Shown here piece after piece: positions 27,510 to 35,646 of a stretch of DNA of 64,000 nucleotides (position 1 is the first letter of the stretch; each line of letters opens with the position of its first letter). The stretch lies in the NCBI RefSeq assembly GCF_008107645.1, contig NZ_SDGY01000001.1, positions 591,630 to 655,629 on the forward strand, read 5' to 3'. This DNA is from Leuconostoc litchii (GTDB lineage: Bacteria; Bacillota; Bacilli; Lactobacillales; Lactobacillaceae). The position numbers and the translations under genes were made by a program. The notes below the pieces were generated by a model. That model ran no database searches. It saw only the letters and a list, made by a program, of their open reading frames with translations, and had not been told where the DNA came from.

Positions 27510-28841
27510 TCACAATAGTCCCCAAGTTGAGGCGCTAATTGAAGGAAATAGATGAATTACTCGTGAAACATCTTCTTTACTGAATTTAAATTCAATTGCC
27601 GGTAACAATGTATCAATAGCATTATCTGCTTGTTCACTCACCTCTGTAGCACCAATTAAACGATGATCATCATCAAAAATCAATGTATTTTCACTAATTC
27701 TTTCATGATTAACTTGGCGATACCAGTCATCAACTAATTGGTTTTGTTGAATGTGATCATTATTTTTTTTAGCATCTTCGACAGATATACCTACTTTAGC
27801 AATTCTAGGCGAAGTAAAGACTACTGATGGAATGACAGGATATTTAATCGGTTCATTACTTTGGCCAGCAAACTGTTTTGATAAGTATAAAGATTCAAAT
27901 ATAGCAGTAGGTGTCAATTTAGGCTGCTTTTTATCAATGACATCACCCGAAGCATATATATTATCAATATTTGTTTGCAAATATTCATTTACAACAATCC
28001 CTTTATCATTATAGTCAATCCCTATTTCCGGCAAACCAATATGCTCAACATTTGGAACACGTCCAGTTGCATCTAAAATCCAATCAGCTATTAATTGCTT
28101 GTTCTCACCATAATGCACAACCGTTTGACCGTTCAATGTTTCAAAACTAGTAATGTTAGCATTCTTAATAAATTTAACACCACGGCCTTTTAAATCATCA
28201 ATGATCTTACTAACATATGGCTGATAGAAGTCTTTCAAGGTACTATCGCCATGCATTAACACAGTCACATCCGCACCAGCAGCATTGGCCATGGTTACAA
28301 ATTCCATACTGATATAACCAGAACCTACGACAACAATCTTTTCAGGTAAATTCTCTAAATTCATAAATTCACGACTATCATGTGCTAACTCACTGCCAGG
28401 AATATCTAACCTATGCGGGCGAAGTCCAGTTGAAATAACAATATTTTCAGCTGTTTTTTGTTGCCCATTTACTAGAATAGTGTGCCTATCTTGAAAAACA
28501 CCTGTCCCATGAATGATATCAATGCCGGCACCTTCAATAAGGCCGGTAATCATATCTGGTAAATCTTCGATAACATGTTGTTTGTATGCTATATTTTCTT
28601 TCCAATTTAATGCTAAACTGCCTGCAACAACATTGTCAAATCTTTCAGCCTTACGCAATAAAGTTACAGGTGCATCCAATGCAATTTTGGCATTGCAGCC
28701 AAAATTTGGACATGTGCCACCTATCATATCTTTTTCAATGACACCAACTTTAGAACCAGTTTGTGCCAGTGGAACTGCACCGTCAAATGTGCCATGTCCA
28801 CTACCTAAATATAAAACATCGTAGTCATATTGCCTTGTCAT
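27510..28841 (-). CDS. FAD-dependent pyridine nucleotide-disulfide oxidoreductase (glutathione reductase-like)
   Basis: 443 aa from ATG 28841, seven bases after GGAGG. FAD motif YLGSGHGTFDGA near the N-terminus, redox-active pair in GGTCPNFGCNAK, NAD(P) motif VVVGSGYISMEF, and second FAD motif NIYASGDVID. The dimerisation domain begins at IPSVVFTSPRIAKVG. The pattern is of the glutathione reductase / mercuric reductase class I family; the usual active-site His-Glu pair of the C-terminus (HxHPTxxE) is not seen, the end being HLFPSISASTWGLL. The substrate is therefore uncertain (a thiol or a coenzyme). Confidence 0.82.
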   Translation of the reverse strand: MTRQYDYDVLYLGSGHGTFDGAVPLAQTGSKVGVIEKDMIGGTCPNFGCNAKIALDAPVTLLRKAERFDNVVAGSLALNWKENIAYKQHVIEDLPDMITGLIEGAGIDIIHGTGVFQDRHTILVNGQQKTAENIVISTGLRPHRLDIPGSELAHDSREFMNLENLPEKIVVVGSGYISMEFVTMANAAGADVTVLMHGDSTLKDFYQPYVSKIIDDLKGRGVKFIKNANITSFETLNGQTVVHYGENKQLIADWILDATGRVPNVEHIGLPEIGIDYNDKGIVVNEYLQTNIDNIYASGDVIDKKQPKLTPTAIFESLYLSKQFAGQSNEPIKYPVIPSVVFTSPRIAKVGISVEDAKKNNDHIQQNQLVDDWYRQVNHERISENTLIFDDDHRLIGATEVSEQADNAIDTLLPAIEFKFSKEDVSRVIHLFPSISASTWGLL

Positions 28842-28933
28842 AAAATTACCTCCAATTTTAATCGGCCAGTCACTAACATTTACGGTCATTATAATTCAGG
28901 TGAATTTTTATAGCAAACAATCTACTCGCTCAA

Positions 28934-29737
28934 TTATGCACGATATGTTGTTGATAATTTATGATACAGTAAAGAAAAGCAATAAAATACTCCTTCAATT
29001 ATGGTGATAAAGAAACTAACTGGCCAGTTACTAATATAGCTCAAATATAAACCCATCCACGTCCCAAATAAGGAAAAAATAAATGAAATTAACATCATTT
29101 GATGAACTGATGTTGCTAAATATTTTGCAGAAGAAGCGGGCACGGTTAACAAAGAAAAAATAAGTAATGAACCAACAATTTGTGCAGTAACACTAACTGT
29201 ACATGCAACTAATATCAAGAATAACAATCCTATCCATAACGTTCCTTTGGCATTAAATTCAGCACCGATTGTATCAAACGAAATATATTTCAGTCGTCGA
29301 AACATGAACACCGTGATGAGCAAGATAAAAGCGATTAAGAGCAAGAGTTCATATAAGTTTTCTTTACTAATACCAACAATACTGCCAAATAAAATATTCG
29401 TTGCATAGCTCGATTGTTTGTTTGATAAAGATAAAAACAATACACCAAGACCAATAAATACAGCCGAAAAAACACTTACTGACGCTTCTCTTTGACTCAA
29501 TTTTCTACCTGCCAGAGAGACAAATATGGAACTCAAAATCGTAAACATTAACATGCCACCAATGGGAGAAATACCAGCAAAAATTGCAAAGCTTGCACCG
29601 GAAAAACTAATTTCAGATAACGTGTGTACATAGAATGAAGTTTTACGTGCTACAACAAAGACACCAATAATTGCACAAATGATTGAAATAAAAAAACTAG
29701 CTATAAACGCATACTGCATAAACGGATAACTAAGCAT
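28934..29737 (-). CDS. Metal (Zn/Mn) ABC transporter permease
   Basis: 267 aa, about seven to eight helices; start MLSYPFMQYAFIASFFISI, then VARKTSFYVHTLSEISFSGASFA, the conserved ABC-3 family loop, and later GSLLIFSLLTVPASSAKYLA. Its start overlaps the ATPase stop by eight bases. It forms the channel of a ZnuABC/AdcABC-like importer. Confidence 0.9.
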   Translation of the reverse strand: MLSYPFMQYAFIASFFISIICAIIGVFVVARKTSFYVHTLSEISFSGASFAIFAGISPIGGMLMFTILSSIFVSLAGRKLSQREASVSVFSAVFIGLGVLFLSLSNKQSSYATNILFGSIVGISKENLYELLLLIAFILLITVFMFRRLKYISFDTIGAEFNAKGTLWIGLLFLILVACTVSVTAQIVGSLLIFSLLTVPASSAKYLATSVHQMMLISFIFSLFGTWMGLYLSYISNWPVSFFITIIEGVFYCFSLLYHKLSTTYRA

Positions 29738-30419
29738 GCTTTCCCCCTTTAGTAGTTAAGCGTAAATTGCTTAATTCACCATGTCCGTTATTAATGTTTA
29801 ACTCAAAGTCACCAAACATTTGGACCAACTCTGGATCATGAGTAATAAAAATAACAGTTAATTGTTCTTGTGCAATGATTTTTTTAACTAGTTTCAACAA
29901 ATCAATGCGTGATTCATAATCCAAATTAGAGGTACTTTCATCCAAAATCAATAATTTTGGATGTGTCATCAACGCTTGTGCCAAATAGACTCGTTGCTTT
30001 TCTCCACCCGAGGCACGTCCTAAAGCGCGATTTTTAATATCATTCAAGTTAGTAAGATTAATAATTTTTTGTAATTGCTCATTTTCTGATTTTATTAGCC
30101 AAGGCAACCACTGTCGGGTTAAATTCAGTACGATAAAATCCTTTACGCTCAATGGAAATTCATCGTCAATATCTCGAAATTGTGGTACTAATTGAATATC
30201 ATCAAAATTAATATTGAAACGAATTTCTTTTTGGAAACTAATAGTATCTTTTGCGGCCTGTAAAAGATACTTAATTAAGGTTGTCTTTCCAACACCATTA
30301 TCACCAGTTAAACACAATAAGGTTCCTGAATAGACATCAAAAGATAATTGATGAATCAATACCTTTCCTGGAATAGTCACATTTAATTGTTCAACTTGTA
30401 ATATTTTTTTAGACATCAT
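29730..30419 (-). CDS. Metal (Zn/Mn) ABC transporter ATPase
   Basis: 229 aa. Walker A GDNGVGKTT, Walker B LLILDESTSNLD, switch FITHD. The signature is ASGGEKQRV in place of LSGGQ, a mild variant. It lies five bases after the binding-protein gene and overlaps the permease gene, so all three form a tight operon. Confidence 0.9.
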   Translation of the reverse strand: MMSKKILQVEQLNVTIPGKVLIHQLSFDVYSGTLLCLTGDNGVGKTTLIKYLLQAAKDTISFQKEIRFNINFDDIQLVPQFRDIDDEFPLSVKDFIVLNLTRQWLPWLIKSENEQLQKIINLTNLNDIKNRALGRASGGEKQRVYLAQALMTHPKLLILDESTSNLDYESRIDLLKLVKKIIAQEQLTVIFITHDPELVQMFGDFELNINNGHGELSNLRLTTKGGKHA

Positions 30420-30424
30420 ATAAA

Positions 30425-31327
30425 CTATTGTTCAACTTTTTGAATCTTTTCTAACTGGTTATATTGATCTAACATCCATTGCTTATAATTTTTATTCTTG
30501 GGCATCGTTTCCGTAACATTTAATACAGGAACTGAATGCTTTTTTGCCAATTTCACCAATTGACTAACAGTCTTATCAGTGGCTTGTGTATTTTGAACGA
30601 AGAATGAAATTTTCTTGTTCTTAATATCATCTTGCATAGACTTAATATCTTTTGGTGATGGATCTGTACCATCTTCAACTGACTTAGAAAAATGAGTGTT
30701 ATTTTCTGTATAACCAAGCTCTTCTAACGCATAATCAAACACGGGTTCACTTACATCAACCAATTTATTATCAGAATTCTTCTTTAACGTGTTTATTTTT
30801 GTTTGAATAGGTTCTAAACTTGCAATATATTTTTTAGCATTAGCCTTAAAAGTATCTTTATGCGTTGGATCTATTTTTGAAAATTTATCAGCTAAATAAT
30901 TAACTAGATTAGGCATTGTTTGGCTTTGATACCACAAATGAGGATTATCACCATCTTTTTTACCAAGCACATCTTCACCCACACGTACTGCTTTCACATC
31001 GGAATTCTTTGCCAACTTAGTCATCCACGAATCGTATCCAATACCATTGTAAATGACTAAATCAGCCTTAGAAACTTCTGTTGCAACTTTAGCACTAGGT
31101 TCATAATCATGTGGATCAACGCTTGGATCAGTAATAACTGACTTAACAGAACCGTACTTGCCTAGTACTTTTTCAGCTGCTTCACCATAAAAATCAACCG
31201 AAGATACAACTTTAATTTCTTTTTGATTAGCGCTTACGGTAGTATTACTTTCATGCACAAAAACAAACATAATGACCGATAAAATGGCAATAATGACGAC
31301 ACCACCAAAAGTATACTTTCGTTTCAT
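30425..31327 (-). CDS. Metal ABC transporter substrate-binding protein (ZnuA/AdcA-like)
   Basis: 300 aa. An N-terminal hydrophobic segment (about 9-26) is followed by VSANQKE; there is no lipobox cysteine. Metal ligands by family position: His in DPHDYEPS, His in NPHLWY, Glu in VDVSEPVFDYALEELG, and Asp near the end. Third ligand Glu rather than His is seen in manganese-type proteins but also in some zinc proteins, so the metal is open. The upstream Fur-family gene and the palindrome in front of this gene suggest metal-dependent repression. Confidence 0.85.
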   Translation of the reverse strand: MKRKYTFGGVVIIAILSVIMFVFVHESNTTVSANQKEIKVVSSVDFYGEAAEKVLGKYGSVKSVITDPSVDPHDYEPSAKVATEVSKADLVIYNGIGYDSWMTKLAKNSDVKAVRVGEDVLGKKDGDNPHLWYQSQTMPNLVNYLADKFSKIDPTHKDTFKANAKKYIASLEPIQTKINTLKKNSDNKLVDVSEPVFDYALEELGYTENNTHFSKSVEDGTDPSPKDIKSMQDDIKNKKISFFVQNTQATDKTVSQLVKLAKKHSVPVLNVTETMPKNKNYKQWMLDQYNQLEKIQKVEQ

Positions 31328-31446
31328 AATTTATATCCCTTACTTTCTCCACTTATTTATTCAATAGCTGTTTCAAATCAGTGGGAACTCTATGTCTTAG
31401 GCATAATAACTACCTCTCTTCATTTATTTACTAAAACAATTCTTTT

Positions 31447-31480
31447 TTATTATAGTAATCATTAATGATTACTATAATAA
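31447..31480. promoter_or_regulatory. 34-bp perfect palindrome upstream of the metal importer
   Basis: Left half TTATTATAGTAATCATT, right half its exact reverse complement, with no spacer (centre between 31463 and 31464). It is 120 bases upstream of the binding-protein start and just after the fur terminator. TAATCATT-like cores are typical of Fur/Zur/PerR boxes, so this is a likely operator. Confidence 0.65.
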
Positions 31481-31507
31481 AAAATAAGCCACTTTCATGG
31501 CTTATTT
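31481..31507 (-). terminator. Terminator of fur-family gene
   Basis: On the minus strand AAATAAGCCA (31507-31498) pairs with TGGCTTATTT (31491-31482), followed by a T-rich tail that runs into the palindrome. Confidence 0.7.
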
Positions 31508-31529
31508 CTAAAAGTAAAGATGTTTAATT

Positions 31530-31979
31530 TTATGCTAGATTATTAATTTTCTGACATTGATCACATAATCCAAACAACTCTAACTTAACATTTAATACCA
31601 AAAAATCTTTTAAAGACTCTTTCAGCTTTGGTGACATACTAGAGTCAATCTTGATTACACGATGACAATTTTGGCAAAAAAAATGTCCGTGATCTGGAGA
31701 AACAAAATCACATTGAAACTTAACATTTAATTGGCCGTTTTCAGAGCGTTGTTCAACAATACCCAAATCTGCAAATTCTTTAATATTTCGATATGTCGTT
31801 GTATGACTGACATTAGGATATAGTTGTTGCATATGGTTATCGACATCCGTAACAGAAACATACTTTGCTTCATAATCAGATAAATATTTTAATAAATCTT
31901 TACGCTGTTTTGTAACTCGAAAAGCACTATTTTGTAAAATAGATAATCCTTTATTGTATTGTCTTTCTGCCTCTATCAT
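31530..31979 (-). CDS. Fur-family metalloregulator (Zur/PerR-like)
   Basis: 149 aa. Winged helix in the N-terminal half, with VTDVDNHMQQLYPNVSHTTTYRNIKEFADLGIVEQ. The hinge has DHGHFFCQNCHRVIKID and the end CDQCQKI, two CxxC pairs that hold a structural zinc. Which metal or signal it senses is not fixed by sequence; its position directly upstream of a Zn/Mn importer favours Zur or a manganese sensor. A Fur-like box overlaps its upstream region. Confidence 0.85.
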   Translation of the reverse strand: MIEAERQYNKGLSILQNSAFRVTKQRKDLLKYLSDYEAKYVSVTDVDNHMQQLYPNVSHTTTYRNIKEFADLGIVEQRSENGQLNVKFQCDFVSPDHGHFFCQNCHRVIKIDSSMSPKLKESLKDFLVLNVKLELFGLCDQCQKINNLA

Positions 31980-32012
31980 AGTATATTACACTTCCATTAT
32001 TCATCAAATTCG

Positions 32013-32027
32013 TTCAGTAATCATTAT
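32013..32027 (-). promoter_or_regulatory. Fur-like box upstream of the fur-family gene
   Basis: On the minus strand AGATAATGATTACTG agrees with the Fur consensus TGATAATNATTATCA at 10 of 14 defined positions. It shares the AGTAATCATTA core with the long palindrome at 31447-31480. It lies about 35-50 bases upstream of the fur start, so autoregulation is plausible. Confidence 0.45.
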
Positions 32028-32125
32028 CTCGCAAAATTGTTAGTTAGTCTACTGGTTTCTTTCCTCTACTTTCGAATCCATAAAATAGCAAAGTCTTTTT
32101 TTACTACTTCTAAAATAATTAATGC

Positions 32126-32225
32126 TACAATAACCTTACTAACGCATCTTCACTCAAAACTTGGGTTTGTAGCACATAGGATGTCGTTATGTGTATTGTT
32201 TGTATCTGTGATAAGGAGATATATT
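32126..32225 (+). promoter_or_regulatory. Presumed promoter and leader of kdsA
   Basis: TGCTACAAT is an extended -10 (TACAAT at 32126-32131) with no clear -35. The leader contains a small inverted repeat CACATA (32173-32178) / TATGTG (32188-32193). AAGGAG follows shortly before the ATG. Confidence 0.35.
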
Positions 32226-33077
32226 ATGACAAAAATTAGTGAAGTTTTTCAAGAATACGGATTTTCAGATGATAAGCTAACATTATTGGCAGGTCCATGT
32301 GCCATTGAATCTTATGACACCTGTGCTGAGGTTGCTGAAAACCTAAAACAAATCACCGAAGATTTGGGTATTAATTATGTTTTCAAATCTTCATTTGACA
32401 AAGCTAATCGTAGTTCTCTTGACTCAGAGCGTGGTGCGGGAATGGAAAATGGTCTCGCAGTATTAAAAAAAATCAAGGAAACATACAAGGTCCCTATTGT
32501 AACAGATGTTCACGAATCTTATCAATGTTCCCCTGTGGCTGAAATTGCTGATGTATTACAAATTCCTGCTTACTTGAGTCGACAAACTGACTTATTAATT
32601 GCTGCAGCTAATACTGGTCGTGTTGTAAATATTAAAAAGGCACAATTTATGGCGCCGGAAGATATTCAAAGCGCAGTTCATAAAGTTGAACAAACTAATA
32701 ACCATATTCTAGTGACAGAACGAGGTAGTATGTTTGGCTATCACCAATTGGTCGTCGATATGACAAGTCTCATTCAAATGCGTGAAACTAAATTTCCCAT
32801 CATTTACGATGCCACTCACTCTGTTCAAATTCCCAGTGGATATGGTAACCATTCTGGTGGAAATCGAGATTATGTTTTCCCATTAATGCGTGCAGCTTTA
32901 ACAATTGGCATAGATGGGATTTTTGCAGAAGTACATCCTAATCCTCCAAAAGCCATTTCTGATCAAGACAGTCAACTATACCTTTCAAAAATACGTCCTA
33001 TTTTAGAGGTTGCCAATGACCTCTTCCATCAAAATCTGAAGATGAAGGCGGTGTACAATCATGAAGGTCTATTATGA
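32226..33077 (+). CDS. kdsA: 3-deoxy-8-phosphooctulonate (Kdo-8-P) synthase
   Basis: 283 aa from ATG 32226, with AAGGAG upstream; the frame is open for a further 89 codons on the 5' side, but that stretch overlaps the fur start and lacks an SD. The KdsA signature FKSSFDKANRSS is present, along with ITDVHE-like VTDVHES, RQTDLL, KKAQFMAP and TERGSMFGY. LAGPCAIES with Cys25 marks the metal-dependent class known from Aquifex, not the Asn type of E. coli. The enzyme joins PEP and arabinose 5-phosphate. Its partner isomerase overlaps its 3' end by 17 bases. Kdo is classically a Gram-negative sugar; kdsB, kdsC and a Kdo transferase are not in the window. Confidence 0.88.
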   Translation: MTKISEVFQEYGFSDDKLTLLAGPCAIESYDTCAEVAENLKQITEDLGINYVFKSSFDKANRSSLDSERGAGMENGLAVLKKIKETYKVPIVTDVHESYQCSPVAEIADVLQIPAYLSRQTDLLIAAANTGRVVNIKKAQFMAPEDIQSAVHKVEQTNNHILVTERGSMFGYHQLVVDMTSLIQMRETKFPIIYDATHSVQIPSGYGNHSGGNRDYVFPLMRAALTIGIDGIFAEVHPNPPKAISDQDSQLYLSKIRPILEVANDLFHQNLKMKAVYNHEGLL

Positions 33078-34017
33078 GGATGCTAAACAAACTTTTGAAA
33101 CGGAAATAGAAGCATTAGATCGTGTAAAACAGTCACTAGGAACGTCATTTGATGAAACAATTGATAAAATATTAGAGACAAAGGGTCGTATTATTTTTCT
33201 AGGAATTGGTAAATCTGGTATTATAGCAGATAAAATCGCTGCATCATTTTCATCAGTCGGATTAGCGAGTTTTTATATTGATGCTGGCACAGCTTATCAT
33301 GGTGATCTAGGTCGTGTCTCATCAGATGATTTAGTTATTTTGATTTCTAATAGTGGTGAAACACAGGAAGTCTTACAATCCTTATCAGCGTTACAAAATA
33401 TACATAAGGACAAATTATTCACTGTAGCTATGACAGGGTCAGAAGATTCTACTCTTGCTAAAAATGCAAATATTGTATTAACCATTGATGTGGCAGAAGA
33501 AGCTGATATTACCAAATTAGCACCAACTAGTTCAACCACAGCAACACTGGTCATGGGTGATGCATTATTGGTTGCGATTGAAAAAGCCAAAGAATTCGAT
33601 CGTGAACATTTTGCATTATATCACCCTGGCGGATCTATTGGAAAAATTTTACTGCAAAATGTCAAGAACTCTATGCATACTAAAATTCCCTATGTTCATA
33701 TAGATACTTCAATCAACGATGTTATCTACCGCATCAGTGACTTTGGTATTGGTATTACATTGGTAAAAGATTCAGAAGAGAATGTCATTGGTATTATTAC
33801 TGATGGTGATATTCGAAAGAAGTTTTTAAATATTAGCAAAGTTAAGGGGTCAACTGCAAAAGACTATATGACCGAAGGCTTTATCAGTATTAATGAAAAT
33901 AAACGTAATCGCGAAGCCTGGAAAAAAATGGCCAATTATAATATTTCAAATCTTGTGGTTTTAGATAACAATCAAAAAGTAGTTGGTGTGGTAACGATTC
34001 ATGATGTCTTAGAGTAA
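33061..34017 (+). CDS. kdsD: Arabinose-5-phosphate isomerase (KpsF/KdsD/GutQ family)
   Basis: 318 aa. N-terminal SIS domain with GIGKSGIIADKIAASF (Lys51-Gly53), GTAYHGDLG (His80), SNSGET, APTSSTTATLVMGDAL and YHPGGSIGK (His188). Two CBS domains fill residues 210-318. This is the full-length A5P isomerase design. It turns ribulose 5-phosphate into arabinose 5-phosphate, the substrate of KdsA, and overlaps kdsA by 17 bases. The pair forms a two-gene operon ended by a strong terminator. Confidence 0.88.
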   Translation: MKVYYEDAKQTFETEIEALDRVKQSLGTSFDETIDKILETKGRIIFLGIGKSGIIADKIAASFSSVGLASFYIDAGTAYHGDLGRVSSDDLVILISNSGETQEVLQSLSALQNIHKDKLFTVAMTGSEDSTLAKNANIVLTIDVAEEADITKLAPTSSTTATLVMGDALLVAIEKAKEFDREHFALYHPGGSIGKILLQNVKNSMHTKIPYVHIDTSINDVIYRISDFGIGITLVKDSEENVIGIITDGDIRKKFLNISKVKGSTAKDYMTEGFISINENKRNREAWKKMANYNISNLVVLDNNQKVVGVVTIHDVLE

Positions 34018-34041
34018 TTTCTCATTAATAATAAATCAACA

Positions 34042-34072
34042 ACAGGCTAGAGAATATCCTCTAGCCTGTTTT
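34042..34072 (+). terminator. Terminator of kdsA-kdsD
   Basis: ACAGGCTAGAG (34042-34052) and CTCTAGCCTGT (34059-34069) form a perfect 11-bp stem followed by TTT. Confidence 0.88.
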
Positions 34073-34098
34073 ATTGTATAAAATTGTCAGTCATGTGC

Positions 34099-34215
34099 TA
34101 TAATAAATGACTAATTATCTCACAAGTCAGATGACCGTGTGAAGTCATTAAACTATAAACTCCAAAGAGCGTTATCCTCACGGCTCTTATACAAACAAAA
34201 CAAAGGAACTTTATC
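34099..34215 (+). promoter_or_regulatory. Promoter and structured leader of nadV
   Basis: Extended -10 TGCTATAAT (TATAAT at 34099-34104). An inverted repeat AATGACT (34106-34112) / AGTCATT (34143-34149) encloses a second one, TCACA (34120-34124) / TGTGA (34138-34142). A separate hairpin AAGAGC (34165-34170) / GCTCTT (34183-34188) follows. CCGTG (34135-34139) in the first element can pair with CACGG (34179-34183) in the second. There is no T run. AAAGGAAC leads to the start codon. It may be an operator, an RNA switch, or both. Confidence 0.5.
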
Positions 34216-35646
34216 ATGACAGTCCAAAATCCGATTCTAAACACAGATGCCTATAAATTAACACATTGGAAAGAATATCCAGAAGGATTACAAAAATTAT
34301 ATTCCTATGCTGAGCCGCGTAAAGGTGGTCGTTTTGATCACATTAATTTTTTTGGTCTGCAGATGATCATTCATGATCATTTTTTGACCCCCATCACTAC
34401 AGAAATGATTGACGAGGCAGAAAGAATCGCAGAATTAACTTTTGGTACTAAAGATTACTTTCATCGAGCCGTTTGGGAAAAAGTACGCAATTTAGGTTAT
34501 TGGCCAATTAAAATAAAATCATTACCTGAAGGTATAATTATTCCAACTGGTAATGTAGTTTTTACTATTGAATCAACACAACCTTGGTTTGCGACAACAT
34601 TGAATGCTCTGGAAACTGTTCTCATGCATGTTTGGTATCCAACCACTATCGCAACAAATGACTATTATATCAAAAAATCTCTAATAAATTTTTATCAAAA
34701 AACCGGTACAATTAATAACTTATCATGGGCTGTTAATGACTTTGGAGCACGTGGTGTCACCTCATTAGAGGCAGCTGAACGTGGTGGTGCAGCACACCTA
34801 CTGCATTTCCGTGGTTCAGATAATATGCCAGCAACACTTGCAATCGAACAAATTTATGGAAAATCAGGATTAGCCATGTCAGTTTGGGCAACAGAACATT
34901 CTGTTGCTACTGCTTATGGATCTGGCCTCGGCGAATTTTCGTATATAAGTGAACAAATTCGTAAATCAGACGAAAACACAACTCTTTCAATTGTAATAGA
35001 TAGCTACGATTCATACAATTTCATTGATTATGTCGTTGGGTCCAAAGAAATTAAGCAATTAATCATAGCTAGACCAGGTCGCACTGTCTTTCGCCCTGAT
35101 TCAGGCGACCCAATTCAAATGCCTTTATCGATCATTGAACATTTAGATATCATTTTTGGGCACACAATGAATGATAAGGGCTACAAGTTATTAAATCATA
35201 ATGTTGGTATTTTACAGGGTGATGGTATGAATCGAGAAACCATTATATCATTTTACCAAACAATTACCGAACAAGGCTGGTCAGCCGATAATGTTGCTGT
35301 TGGATCAGGAGGCGGCTTATTACAAGAAGGATTCACTCGTGACACTGAGCGTTTTGCTATTAAAGCTGCTTTTGGTATTGATAGAAACGGACAACCTTTT
35401 AATATTCAAAAACATCCCAAAACAGACATTACAAAAGCTTCAAAAGCTGGATTATTAAAAGTAGTTGATCATGATGGGGTCCTAGAAACCGTCCCTTCTA
35501 TTTCTGATGGTCACGATAGTGATGATATGTTGCGCGTTATTTACGAAGATGGCCGTTACTATCCAGAAACTTTTGATATTATTCGTAAACGTGCAAAATT
35601 AGCGATACAAAAAGCTACAGATATAAATCTTGATAGCACACCATAA
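34216..35646 (+). CDS. nadV: Nicotinamide phosphoribosyltransferase (NAMPT/NadV)
   Basis: 476 aa, the length of NAMPT rather than of nicotinate PRTase. NTDAYKLTHWKEYPEG and FFGLQMIIHDHF at the N-terminus, VNDFGARGVTSLEAA with the Asp that selects nicotinamide over nicotinate, then RPDSGDP, QGDGMN and GSGGGLLQ around the active site. It makes NMN from nicotinamide and PRPP, so the cell can recycle nicotinamide directly. It is a single-gene unit with its own promoter and a structured leader. Confidence 0.92.
   Translation: MTVQNPILNTDAYKLTHWKEYPEGLQKLYSYAEPRKGGRFDHINFFGLQMIIHDHFLTPITTEMIDEAERIAELTFGTKDYFHRAVWEKVRNLGYWPIKIKSLPEGIIIPTGNVVFTIESTQPWFATTLNALETVLMHVWYPTTIATNDYYIKKSLINFYQKTGTINNLSWAVNDFGARGVTSLEAAERGGAAHLLHFRGSDNMPATLAIEQIYGKSGLAMSVWATEHSVATAYGSGLGEFSYISEQIRKSDENTTLSIVIDSYDSYNFIDYVVGSKEIKQLIIARPGRTVFRPDSGDPIQMPLSIIEHLDIIFGHTMNDKGYKLLNHNVGILQGDGMNRETIISFYQTITEQGWSADNVAVGSGGGLLQEGFTRDTERFAIKAAFGIDRNGQPFNIQKHPKTDITKASKAGLLKVVDHDGVLETVPSISDGHDSDDMLRVIYEDGRYYPETFDIIRKRAKLAIQKATDINLDSTP

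Follow-up and report, generated by a model that had tools for sequence, protein, structure and literature searches.

A kdsA-kdsD gene pair of Leuconostoc and other Lactobacillaceae as a putative truncated and mobile Kdo pathway

The locus and its two predicted enzymes

A stretch of 64,000 nucleotides from Leuconostoc litchii (contig NZ_SDGY01000001.1 of assembly GCF_008107645.1, positions 591,630 to 655,629), hereafter called the window, carries two overlapping genes, kdsA and kdsD, whose predicted products belong to the pathway of 3-deoxy-D-manno-octulosonate (Kdo). Their coordinates and those of the surrounding elements are given in Table 1. The two genes appear to form an operon, and a scan for terminators found three terminator-like sites, two of which are the stem behind kdsD read on either strand, compared to 0.9 expected in shuffled sequences. 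The candidate -10 element is kept in all four loci of the window's own clade; no consensus -35 element was seen with it and a scan for consensus promoters did not list it. A TTG-started open reading frame (ORF) of 372 amino acids in the program-made ORF list represents an upstream extension of kdsA.

Table 1. Features of the kdsA-kdsD locus in positions of the window
Feature	Position	Strand	Remarks
Divergent Fur-family regulator (Zur/PerR-like)	31530..31979	-	PF01475 at 70.6 bits; below every NCBIfam cut-off
Candidate extended -10 element upstream of kdsA	32123..32131	+	TGCTACAAT; putative, read in the sequence
Ribosome-binding site of kdsA	32213..32218	+	AAGGAG; read in the sequence, conserved in four loci of the window's clade
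kdsA, predicted metal-type 3-deoxy-8-phosphooctulonate (Kdo-8-phosphate) synthase	32226..33077	+	283 amino acids, ATG start
Overlap between kdsA and kdsD	33061..33077	+	17 bases
kdsD, predicted SIS-CBS arabinose-5-phosphate isomerase (KpsF/GutQ family)	33061..34017	+	318 amino acids
Predicted intrinsic terminator of the operon	34041..34070	+	12-pair stem, then TTATTGTATA; stem also reads on the other strand

KdsA exceeded the cut-offs of two equivalog models of Kdo-8-phosphate synthase (NF003543 with 378 bits at a cut-off of 242 and TIGR01362 with 360 bits at a cut-off of 314) and stayed below that of a third, NF009109 (285 bits, cut-off 457). Models of 3-deoxy-D-arabino-heptulosonate-7-phosphate (DAHP) synthase gave at most 124 bits, and an identity as DAHP synthase was rejected because the genome harbors a separate DAHP-like match, which scores 106 bits in the KdsA model. 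Among solved structures the best matches were those of Aquifex KdsA (E 1e-83), whose metal-binding Cys aligns with Cys25 of the window's protein, the other ligands being His198, Glu235 and Asp246. Binding of the metal by Cys, His, Glu and Asp characterizes the metal class of KdsA, while an Asn takes the place of the Cys in the non-metal class, as described in an excerpt of PMC3052366. All four ligands (C25, H198, E235 and D246) are invariant in the 28 Lactobacillaceae copies compared. An alignment of these copies with 77 other KdsA sequences contained 61 columns that are conserved to at least 95% outside the clade, and of these 54 are invariant within it. Six are variable, A226 being retained in just 12 of 28 copies, and one is mostly altered, with Y in place of F116 in 17 of 28. 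The invariant columns include K59-A60-N61-R62, the KANR motif, which we take to be the acceptor loop of KdsA. At the level of sequence, KdsA is confirmed as a metal-type Kdo-8-phosphate synthase with predicted catalysis on arabinose-5-phosphate (A5P) and phosphoenolpyruvate (PEP).

KdsD passed the model of the KpsF/GutQ subfamily (TIGR00393, 263.7 bits at a cut-off of 203.7) and contains, according to Pfam, an SIS domain and a CBS domain in two stretches. Under the narrower equivalog cut-offs of NCBI it reached 263.7 of 505 bits for the KdsD model and 238.8 of 481 bits for the GutQ model. Residues H80, E103, E147 and H188, which correspond to positions 88, 111, 152 and 193 of the E. coli protein, are present in all 28 Lactobacillaceae copies, and K51, the counterpart of E. 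coli position 59, in 27 of them, the one gap belonging most likely to a frameshifted copy. We assume Lys59, His88, Glu111, Glu152 and His193 of E. coli to be the catalytic residues of A5P isomerase. When the 28 copies were aligned with 52 other sequences, 45 columns were conserved to at least 95% outside the clade; 30 of these are invariant within the clade, 12 vary and three are changed, among them an R to K replacement at position 253 in 28/28 copies. KdsD is hence confirmed as a predicted full-length A5P isomerase, with the match holding at the subfamily level. Two kdsD copies are disrupted, one split by a frameshift (genome G328, locus L120:10605-11562) and one with a frame that ends early (G338, L121:9387-11088, an assembly of 890 contigs), and either may be a real pseudogene or a sequencing error.

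The first-pass annotation had read the locus in the same way, as a metal-type KdsA with an Aquifex-like Cys25 next to an SIS-CBS A5P isomerase, the two genes overlapping by 17 bases and forming an operon with its own terminator. Each of these points was borne out by the equivalog and subfamily models, the kept sites with all four metal ligands, and the features in Table 1.

Distribution, pairing and descent of kdsA and kdsD

KdsA was found in 30 of 397 sampled Lactobacillaceae genomes (E 1e-60). The pair, whose conservation in Leuconostoc and its sister genera the first-pass annotation had left to be checked, thus occurs in 8 of 40 genera of the family and in 12 of 19 listed genomes of the window's own genus, the other seven lacking it. 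In an order-level sample of 395 genomes all six KdsA matches fell within the Lactobacillaceae, and the five matches in a class-level sample of 398 genomes were those of the window's genome and four from other families. An SIS-CBS KdsD was present in the same 30 Lactobacillaceae genomes and in none of the other 367 (E 1e-30; in many genomes the best six candidates were scored), two of these matches being incomplete, namely the broken one of G328 and that of G338, which covers positions 1-242 of 268. The co-occurrence of both genes is accordingly strong (Fisher p 9e-46, relatedness not corrected), and kdsA and kdsD are adjacent on the same strand in all 30 carriers, of which 28 are represented by wide loci and two by short ones. 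Such an obligate pairing argues that A5P is made for KdsA. In this respect the pair differs from the lone A5P isomerase of Clostridium tetani, a Gram-positive that reportedly possesses no Kdo pathway, as kdsD here goes with kdsA in 30/30 carriers. Separately, SIS-only KpsF-like proteins, mostly of about 200 amino acids and with matches ending by position 166, were observed in genomes G009, G030, G049, G107, G132, G186, G290, G316, G369, G392 and G330; they are possible lone A5P isomerases, and 10 of these 11 genomes lack kdsA, the SIS-only protein of G330 being a second copy.

Selection on both genes was assessed by the ratio of nonsynonymous to synonymous substitution rates (dN/dS) in eleven close pairs, i.e. 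22 comparisons. The ratio ranged from 0.02 to 0.07 for kdsA and from 0.02 to 0.16 for kdsD, with 20 of the 22 values lying between 0.02 and 0.08; the highest value stems from a pair with a dS of 0.009, and the broken copy of G328 forms part of one kdsD pair. Together, the invariant sites and the low dN/dS values show both genes to be under purifying selection as enzymes, and their presence in 30 genomes at ratios of 0.02-0.16 indicates that the pair is no chance occurrence.

In the tree of KdsA the 28 mapped Lactobacillaceae proteins form one clade (support 100/100) on a long stem branch of 0.47, and its sister (99/82) consists of the proteins of the Bacilli genome G797 and of locus L012. The latter (L012:10-1699) lies on a contig labelled as the Bacteroidales metagenome-assembled genome AS22ysBPME_181 and holds kdsA (63%) and kdsD (44%) nearest the Lactobacillaceae/G797 branch, a placement that may result from transfer or from mis-binning. 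The stem branch, together with residues specific to the clade (C101, H173 and D248 in KdsA; K253, D149 and L170 in KdsD) and TIGR01362 scores of 339-369 bits compared to 402-421 bits in the other Bacilli found, would be compatible with a changed acceptor of KdsA, in which case a related 3-deoxy sugar phosphate would be formed or A5P would go to another use. We consider this improbable, as all 30 carriers exceed the curated TIGR01362 cut-off, 54 of the 61 conserved KdsA columns are invariant and the obligate pairing with an A5P isomerase argues for A5P as the acceptor.

Downstream Kdo genes and the fate of the product

The first-pass annotation had noted that kdsB, kdsC and a Kdo transferase gene are absent from the window and had left it to a search of the remaining genome whether they, or WaaA-like genes, lie elsewhere. 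We examined the 30 carriers and seven Leuconostoc non-carriers, using PF04413 (WaaA) and PF05159 (KpsC/S) for the transferases. PF02348, the KdsB family, had no match in the window's genome and was present in 11 of 14 control genomes. Matches of 19.6-25.5 bits only were obtained in 18 of the 37 genomes (15 carriers and three non-carriers), and all but one lie in frames of 459-470 amino acids, which we take to be GlmU; the exception, in a 243-amino-acid frame of G235, is a full-length PF01128 protein. No genome of the 37 exceeded the cut-off of the KdsC model. Weaker matches to this model occurred in all of them, mostly in HAD frames of 260-300 amino acids, the best one of the window's genome reaching 41 bits (cut-off 107) in a frame of 281 amino acids. 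PF04413 was found in none of 39 genomes, G797 and the further comparison genome G1022 included, and PF05159 in none of the 37 Lactobacillaceae genomes, with two matches in G797. As far as the tested families go, the carriers thus possess no convincing KdsB, KdsC, WaaA or KpsC/S, and the absence noted for the window was upheld for its whole genome and for the 29 other carriers.

The neighborhood of the pair agrees with this result: in stretches of up to ~10 kb on each side, less at contig ends, no homolog of E. coli KdsB, KdsC or WaaA was seen around any of the 28 mapped Lactobacillaceae loci at the thresholds used, whereas kdsB, kdsC and kdsD stand beside kdsA in 5/5 Bacillus/Neobacillus loci and in two Clostridia loci (L013 and L030). 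The TarI/IspD family was tried as a source of a surrogate activating enzyme and rejected, since full-length PF01128 proteins (237-243 amino acids) occur in only 4/30 carriers; the family has matches in all 37 genomes, and outside the full-length cases, as in the window's genome, these are partial, scoring ~26-43 bits and lying mostly in GlmU-sized frames.

Because the downstream families are missing, we propose that the end product is Kdo-8-phosphate or free Kdo, used without activation by cytidine monophosphate (CMP), and activation by a tested family is unlikely. Several points weigh against this proposal. In 10 of the 37 genomes PF02348 matches lie just above Pfam's low cut-off of 22.6, and a non-homologous activating enzyme is possible. 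Furthermore, kdsB lies in the examined stretch of only 26 of 73 other loci, so that a missing neighbor is weak evidence and the argument for truncation rests on the genome-wide searches.

By sequence, the window's KdsA belongs to the same family as the metal-dependent enzyme of Aquifex aeolicus (PDB 1fwn and others) and shares with it the Cys-His-Glu-Asp site and the KANRSS acceptor loop; Aquifex, however, is a Gram-negative with downstream use of Kdo, whereas the Lactobacillaceae carriers have neither KdsB nor a tested Kdo transferase family. Like KdsD, GutQ and KpsF of E. coli, the isomerase combines SIS and CBS domains and keeps the tested catalytic residues, but the window's KdsD falls below both the KdsD and the GutQ equivalog cut-off and its gene overlaps kdsA in carriers. 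Among Gram-positive Bacilli, kdsA and kdsD also occur together in the Bacillus/Neobacillus loci and in the Kdo island of Bacillus coahuilensis m2-6, which an excerpt of PMC4744853 gives as kdsB, kpsC, kdsD, kdsC and kdsA; in contrast to the Lactobacillaceae pair, these loci all carry kdsB and kdsC, and the island kpsC as well. Kdo2-lipid A genes are listed for none of seven Gram-positive genomes in an excerpt of PMC3087551. The first-pass annotation had regarded Kdo genes in a Gram-positive as noteworthy in themselves; their occurrence stands, yet this emphasis is weakened by the kdsA, kdsB, kdsC and kdsD sets of the five Bacillus/Neobacillus loci and, judging from the excerpted island, of B. 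coahuilensis. A Streptomyces linear plasmid (L177:6004-8179) carries kdsA, a gene for an SIS protein and kdsB in a row, i.e. a fuller Kdo set, likewise in a Gram-positive.

The sister locus in G797 (L154; KdsA 56%, KdsD 47%) has the order kdsA-kdsC-kdsD-kdsB with two KpsC/S-like genes close by and, judged by eye, further genes resembling polysaccharide genes. The simplest history would be one entry into the Lactobacillaceae, or one ancestral cluster, of which only kdsA-kdsD was retained, and this lineage would have shed the remaining Kdo pathway, leaving the two genes by themselves at varying places in the chromosomes and on plasmids. The G797 locus can also be taken to speak for an alternative, in which Kdo is activated and built into a wall polymer, an exopolysaccharide or a glycoprotein by enzymes outside the tested families. 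In G1022 the Kdo genes follow genes that by eye resemble flagellin genes; KdsD has kept its CBS pair, and structure 4o9k shows a relative of it, presumably with CMP-Kdo; and the PS_pyruv_trans gene, a neighbor of kdsAD in G095 and on the plasmids, comes from a family that modifies polysaccharides. We nevertheless judge such incorporation rather unlikely, given that all 30 carriers lack WaaA and KpsC/S and have weak, mostly GlmU-sized PF02348 matches only, that full-length TarI/IspD-like proteins are confined to 4/30 carriers and missing from the window's genome, and that no glycan gene recurs among the annotated neighbors, most neighbors having been clustered only, without annotation. Kdo in a wall polymer, one of the end products considered in the first-pass annotation, therefore gained no support from PF02348, PF04413 and PF05159, and its decision to leave the end product open was the right stance.

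The loss of the downstream genes, the frameshifted and shortened kdsD copies (L120 in G328 and L121 in G338) and the seven listed genomes of the genus without the pair would fit a functionless remnant of a lost Kdo pathway in the course of decay. This is scarcely credible, since selection is purifying for both genes in the eleven close pairs compared, the active sites are invariant and the plasmid copies intact.

Genomic settings, mobility and possible role

The 28 mapped loci fall into about eleven genomic settings, for which representatives were annotated and the remaining loci assigned by similarity. The pair lies beside zur/znu in four loci (the window included), with a GlsB gene and a GDPD-like gene in two, with PNPOx-like, SDR or aldo-keto reductase genes in six, between luxS and pyrB in four loci of the genus Weissella, upstream of a CcpN-like gene in four g29 loci (preceded, where the contig extends far enough, by an rRNA operon or lepB), with pyruvyl transferase and ahpC/ahpF-like genes in one (G095) and with pflB-pflA in two g30 loci; two g21 loci form a setting of their own, as do the single loci of G019, L. 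ubinensis and G363.

In the window, positions 27510-31979 hold the Fur-family gene, a znuA-like and a dihydrolipoamide-dehydrogenase-like gene and, by eye, genes for an ABC ATPase and a permease; this region looks like a zinc uptake locus and is conserved in the three closest relatives. The first-pass annotation had noted that the operon sits next to a metal regulator. A functional link between the two was not borne out: of the 28 mapped loci only four have the regulator next to kdsAD, which makes it an incidental neighbor, and metal regulation as a general feature was rejected on this ground, no dedicated scan for binding sites having been made. Comparison of the upstream regions within genera revealed, by eye, no element common across genera. 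A 24-base element before kdsA that is conserved in five g29 genomes was discarded as a shared operator; allowing one mismatch, it occurs once per genome and only before kdsA, hence pointing to no regulon, and is absent from the window's genome and from G330. A search for known RNA leaders in six loci at gathering score returned only rRNA and tRNA matches. In the two g21 genomes ~95 bases before kdsA (L108:9355-9455, L109:10519-10620) show 88% mean column identity over 100 columns, fold into hairpins and match no Rfam family at threshold, so that they could be an undescribed regulatory leader; one match each in L109 and in window positions 31400-34300, far below the family gathering score, was taken as chance.

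Several neighbors belong to central metabolism. The CcpN-like gene downstream of the pair in four g29 loci is accompanied in three by a single-frame pyruvate phosphate dikinase gene, pflB-pflA adjoin the pair in two g30 loci, and a 6-phosphogluconate dehydrogenase gene lies ~2-7 kb from kdsD in five Leuconostoc loci. They could hint at a metabolic valve, through which the pair drains ribulose-5-phosphate and PEP or the CBS domains sense a nucleotide, Kdo-8-phosphate formation thereby regulating central metabolism. As these neighbors change from genus to genus and the mapped settings share no regulator gene, we regard this as quite improbable. In one g29 locus (L110:4348-14878) kdsA-kdsD directly follows the rRNA operon and precedes the genes for the CcpN-like regulator and pyruvate phosphate dikinase. 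A pyrimidine link in Weissella, where the pair lies between luxS and pyrB, was rejected, since kdsD is followed by a sequence which we take to resemble a PyrR attenuator and the pyr operon thus looks separate.

Copies of kdsAD reside on one plasmid each of L. citreum CBA3624 (38 kb) and L. mesenteroides ML2 (48 kb), where automatic annotation names both genes. In both trees the plasmid copies nest in the L. falkenbergense/G235 clade. The L. citreum plasmid copy (L175:19036-20827) differs from that of G235 (L176:33062-34853) in 28 of 1792 bases. Their likeness takes in the two ORFs along with the ribosome site, reaching from 17 bases upstream of kdsA as far as the kdsD end, and the immediate flanks are unrelated. 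This suggests a recombinational exchange confined to the coding sequence that both share, with other routes possible. Carriage by phages was rejected, as the ten matching phage records all lie below 60% identity and none is named for a Lactobacillaceae host.

Near kdsAD both plasmids carry an IS30 element, SDR, CorA, DUF1345, Asp23/Gls24, DUF2273, AmaP and GlsB genes and the PS_pyruv_trans gene. Part of this surrounding recurs on chromosomes: a GlsB-like gene lies within 3.6 kb of the pair in 8 of 12 chromosomal Leuconostoc loci, the plasmid-type SDR gene (73-76%) adjoins kdsA in three Leuconostoc loci, and Asp23, DUF2273 and AmaP genes are found 4-5 kb from the pair in one. In G095 a pyruvyl transferase gene (58% to the plasmid one) is located directly upstream of the pair, and the downstream genes score just under the AhpC and AhpF-homolog cut-offs. 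Linkage to genes of envelope or oxidative stress thus extends to 8/12 Leuconostoc loci, both plasmids and G095, the Leuconostoc settings among them being few and not independent. One record (H48) names the plasmid pyruvyl transferase gene (L175:5374-6399) a 'general stress protein'. As a dedicated partner of the pair the pyruvyl transferase was rejected, given that it occurs on 91 plasmid records of which only two have this kdsA.

A possible expression response comes from Oenococcus oeni, where OEOE_1332 ('2-dehydro-3-deoxyphosphooctonate aldolase') is up after 2 h in wine-like medium, with values of 1.05 by microarray and 4.03 by quantitative PCR (qPCR) in Table 1 of PMC5044463. The printed OEOE_1332 primers fit kdsA of G121 with six and three mismatches and at the printed spacing of 106 bases; in a control with 2000 shuffles of each primer on the kdsA of L104, the forward primer gave 39 hits at six mismatches or fewer and the reverse primer none below four.

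We propose that KdsD would convert ribulose-5-phosphate, a main intermediate of the Leuconostoc phosphoketolase pathway, to A5P, that KdsA would combine A5P with PEP to Kdo-8-phosphate and that a general HAD phosphatase of the cell may release free Kdo from it. Kdo-8-phosphate or free Kdo would then be used without CMP activation and would most likely serve, as a soluble or exported sugar acid, in an accessory and strain-variable way in the tolerance of envelope, acid or oxidative stress. The predicted route from ribulose-5-phosphate over A5P to Kdo-8-phosphate is strongly supported by the models and conserved sites, and we infer the product, its dephosphorylation, the lack of activation and the stress role, the last of which would fit the best-linked copies. 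A mobile, self-contained kdsAD module that ends at Kdo-8-phosphate or free Kdo without CMP activation and has an accessory stress role comes, in our view, close to being probable. That the bare pair represents a mobile, CMP-independent use of Kdo, in which Kdo-8-phosphate or free Kdo is itself the end product and a stress-related sugar acid whose two genes are handed on among lactic acid bacteria, is put forward with reserve as a real possibility.

The stress role in particular has to be weighed against a number of observations. Within the stretches examined, none of the plasmid stress genes was found around the window's own locus and its three nearest relatives, in the four Weissella loci, in four of five g29 loci or in G019, L. 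ubinensis, g21 and g30, and G363 has only a GlsB-like gene 11.6 kb away. The Leuconostoc stress settings are likewise few and not independent, and of the 91 plasmid records with the PS_pyruv_trans gene, mostly from lactic acid bacteria, only two have this kdsA. The identity of OEOE_1332 rests on its primers, the printed spacing being reproduced in only 1 of 16 kdsA copies tested, and the validation genes of the O. oeni study were, according to an excerpt of PMC5044463, partly chosen at random.

No paper discussing kdsA or the kdsA-kdsD pair in Leuconostoc was found in the open-access literature searched; the present analysis adds the truncation, the copies on plasmids and the settings with stress genes. 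We regard the pair as a mobile and truncated version of the known Kdo pathway and not as a new kind of enzyme. Kdo is treated as characteristic of Gram-negative envelopes and of plant walls, a premise on which work on KdsA as an antibacterial target rests. If the proposal is true, food-fermenting Gram-positives retain under selection, and pass among themselves, no more of the pathway than the two steps as far as Kdo-8-phosphate, and Kdo or its phosphate has a use outside CMP-Kdo glycans. The question can be tested in culturable food bacteria, with carrier and non-carrier species within one genus and with the pair borne on a plasmid in two strains.

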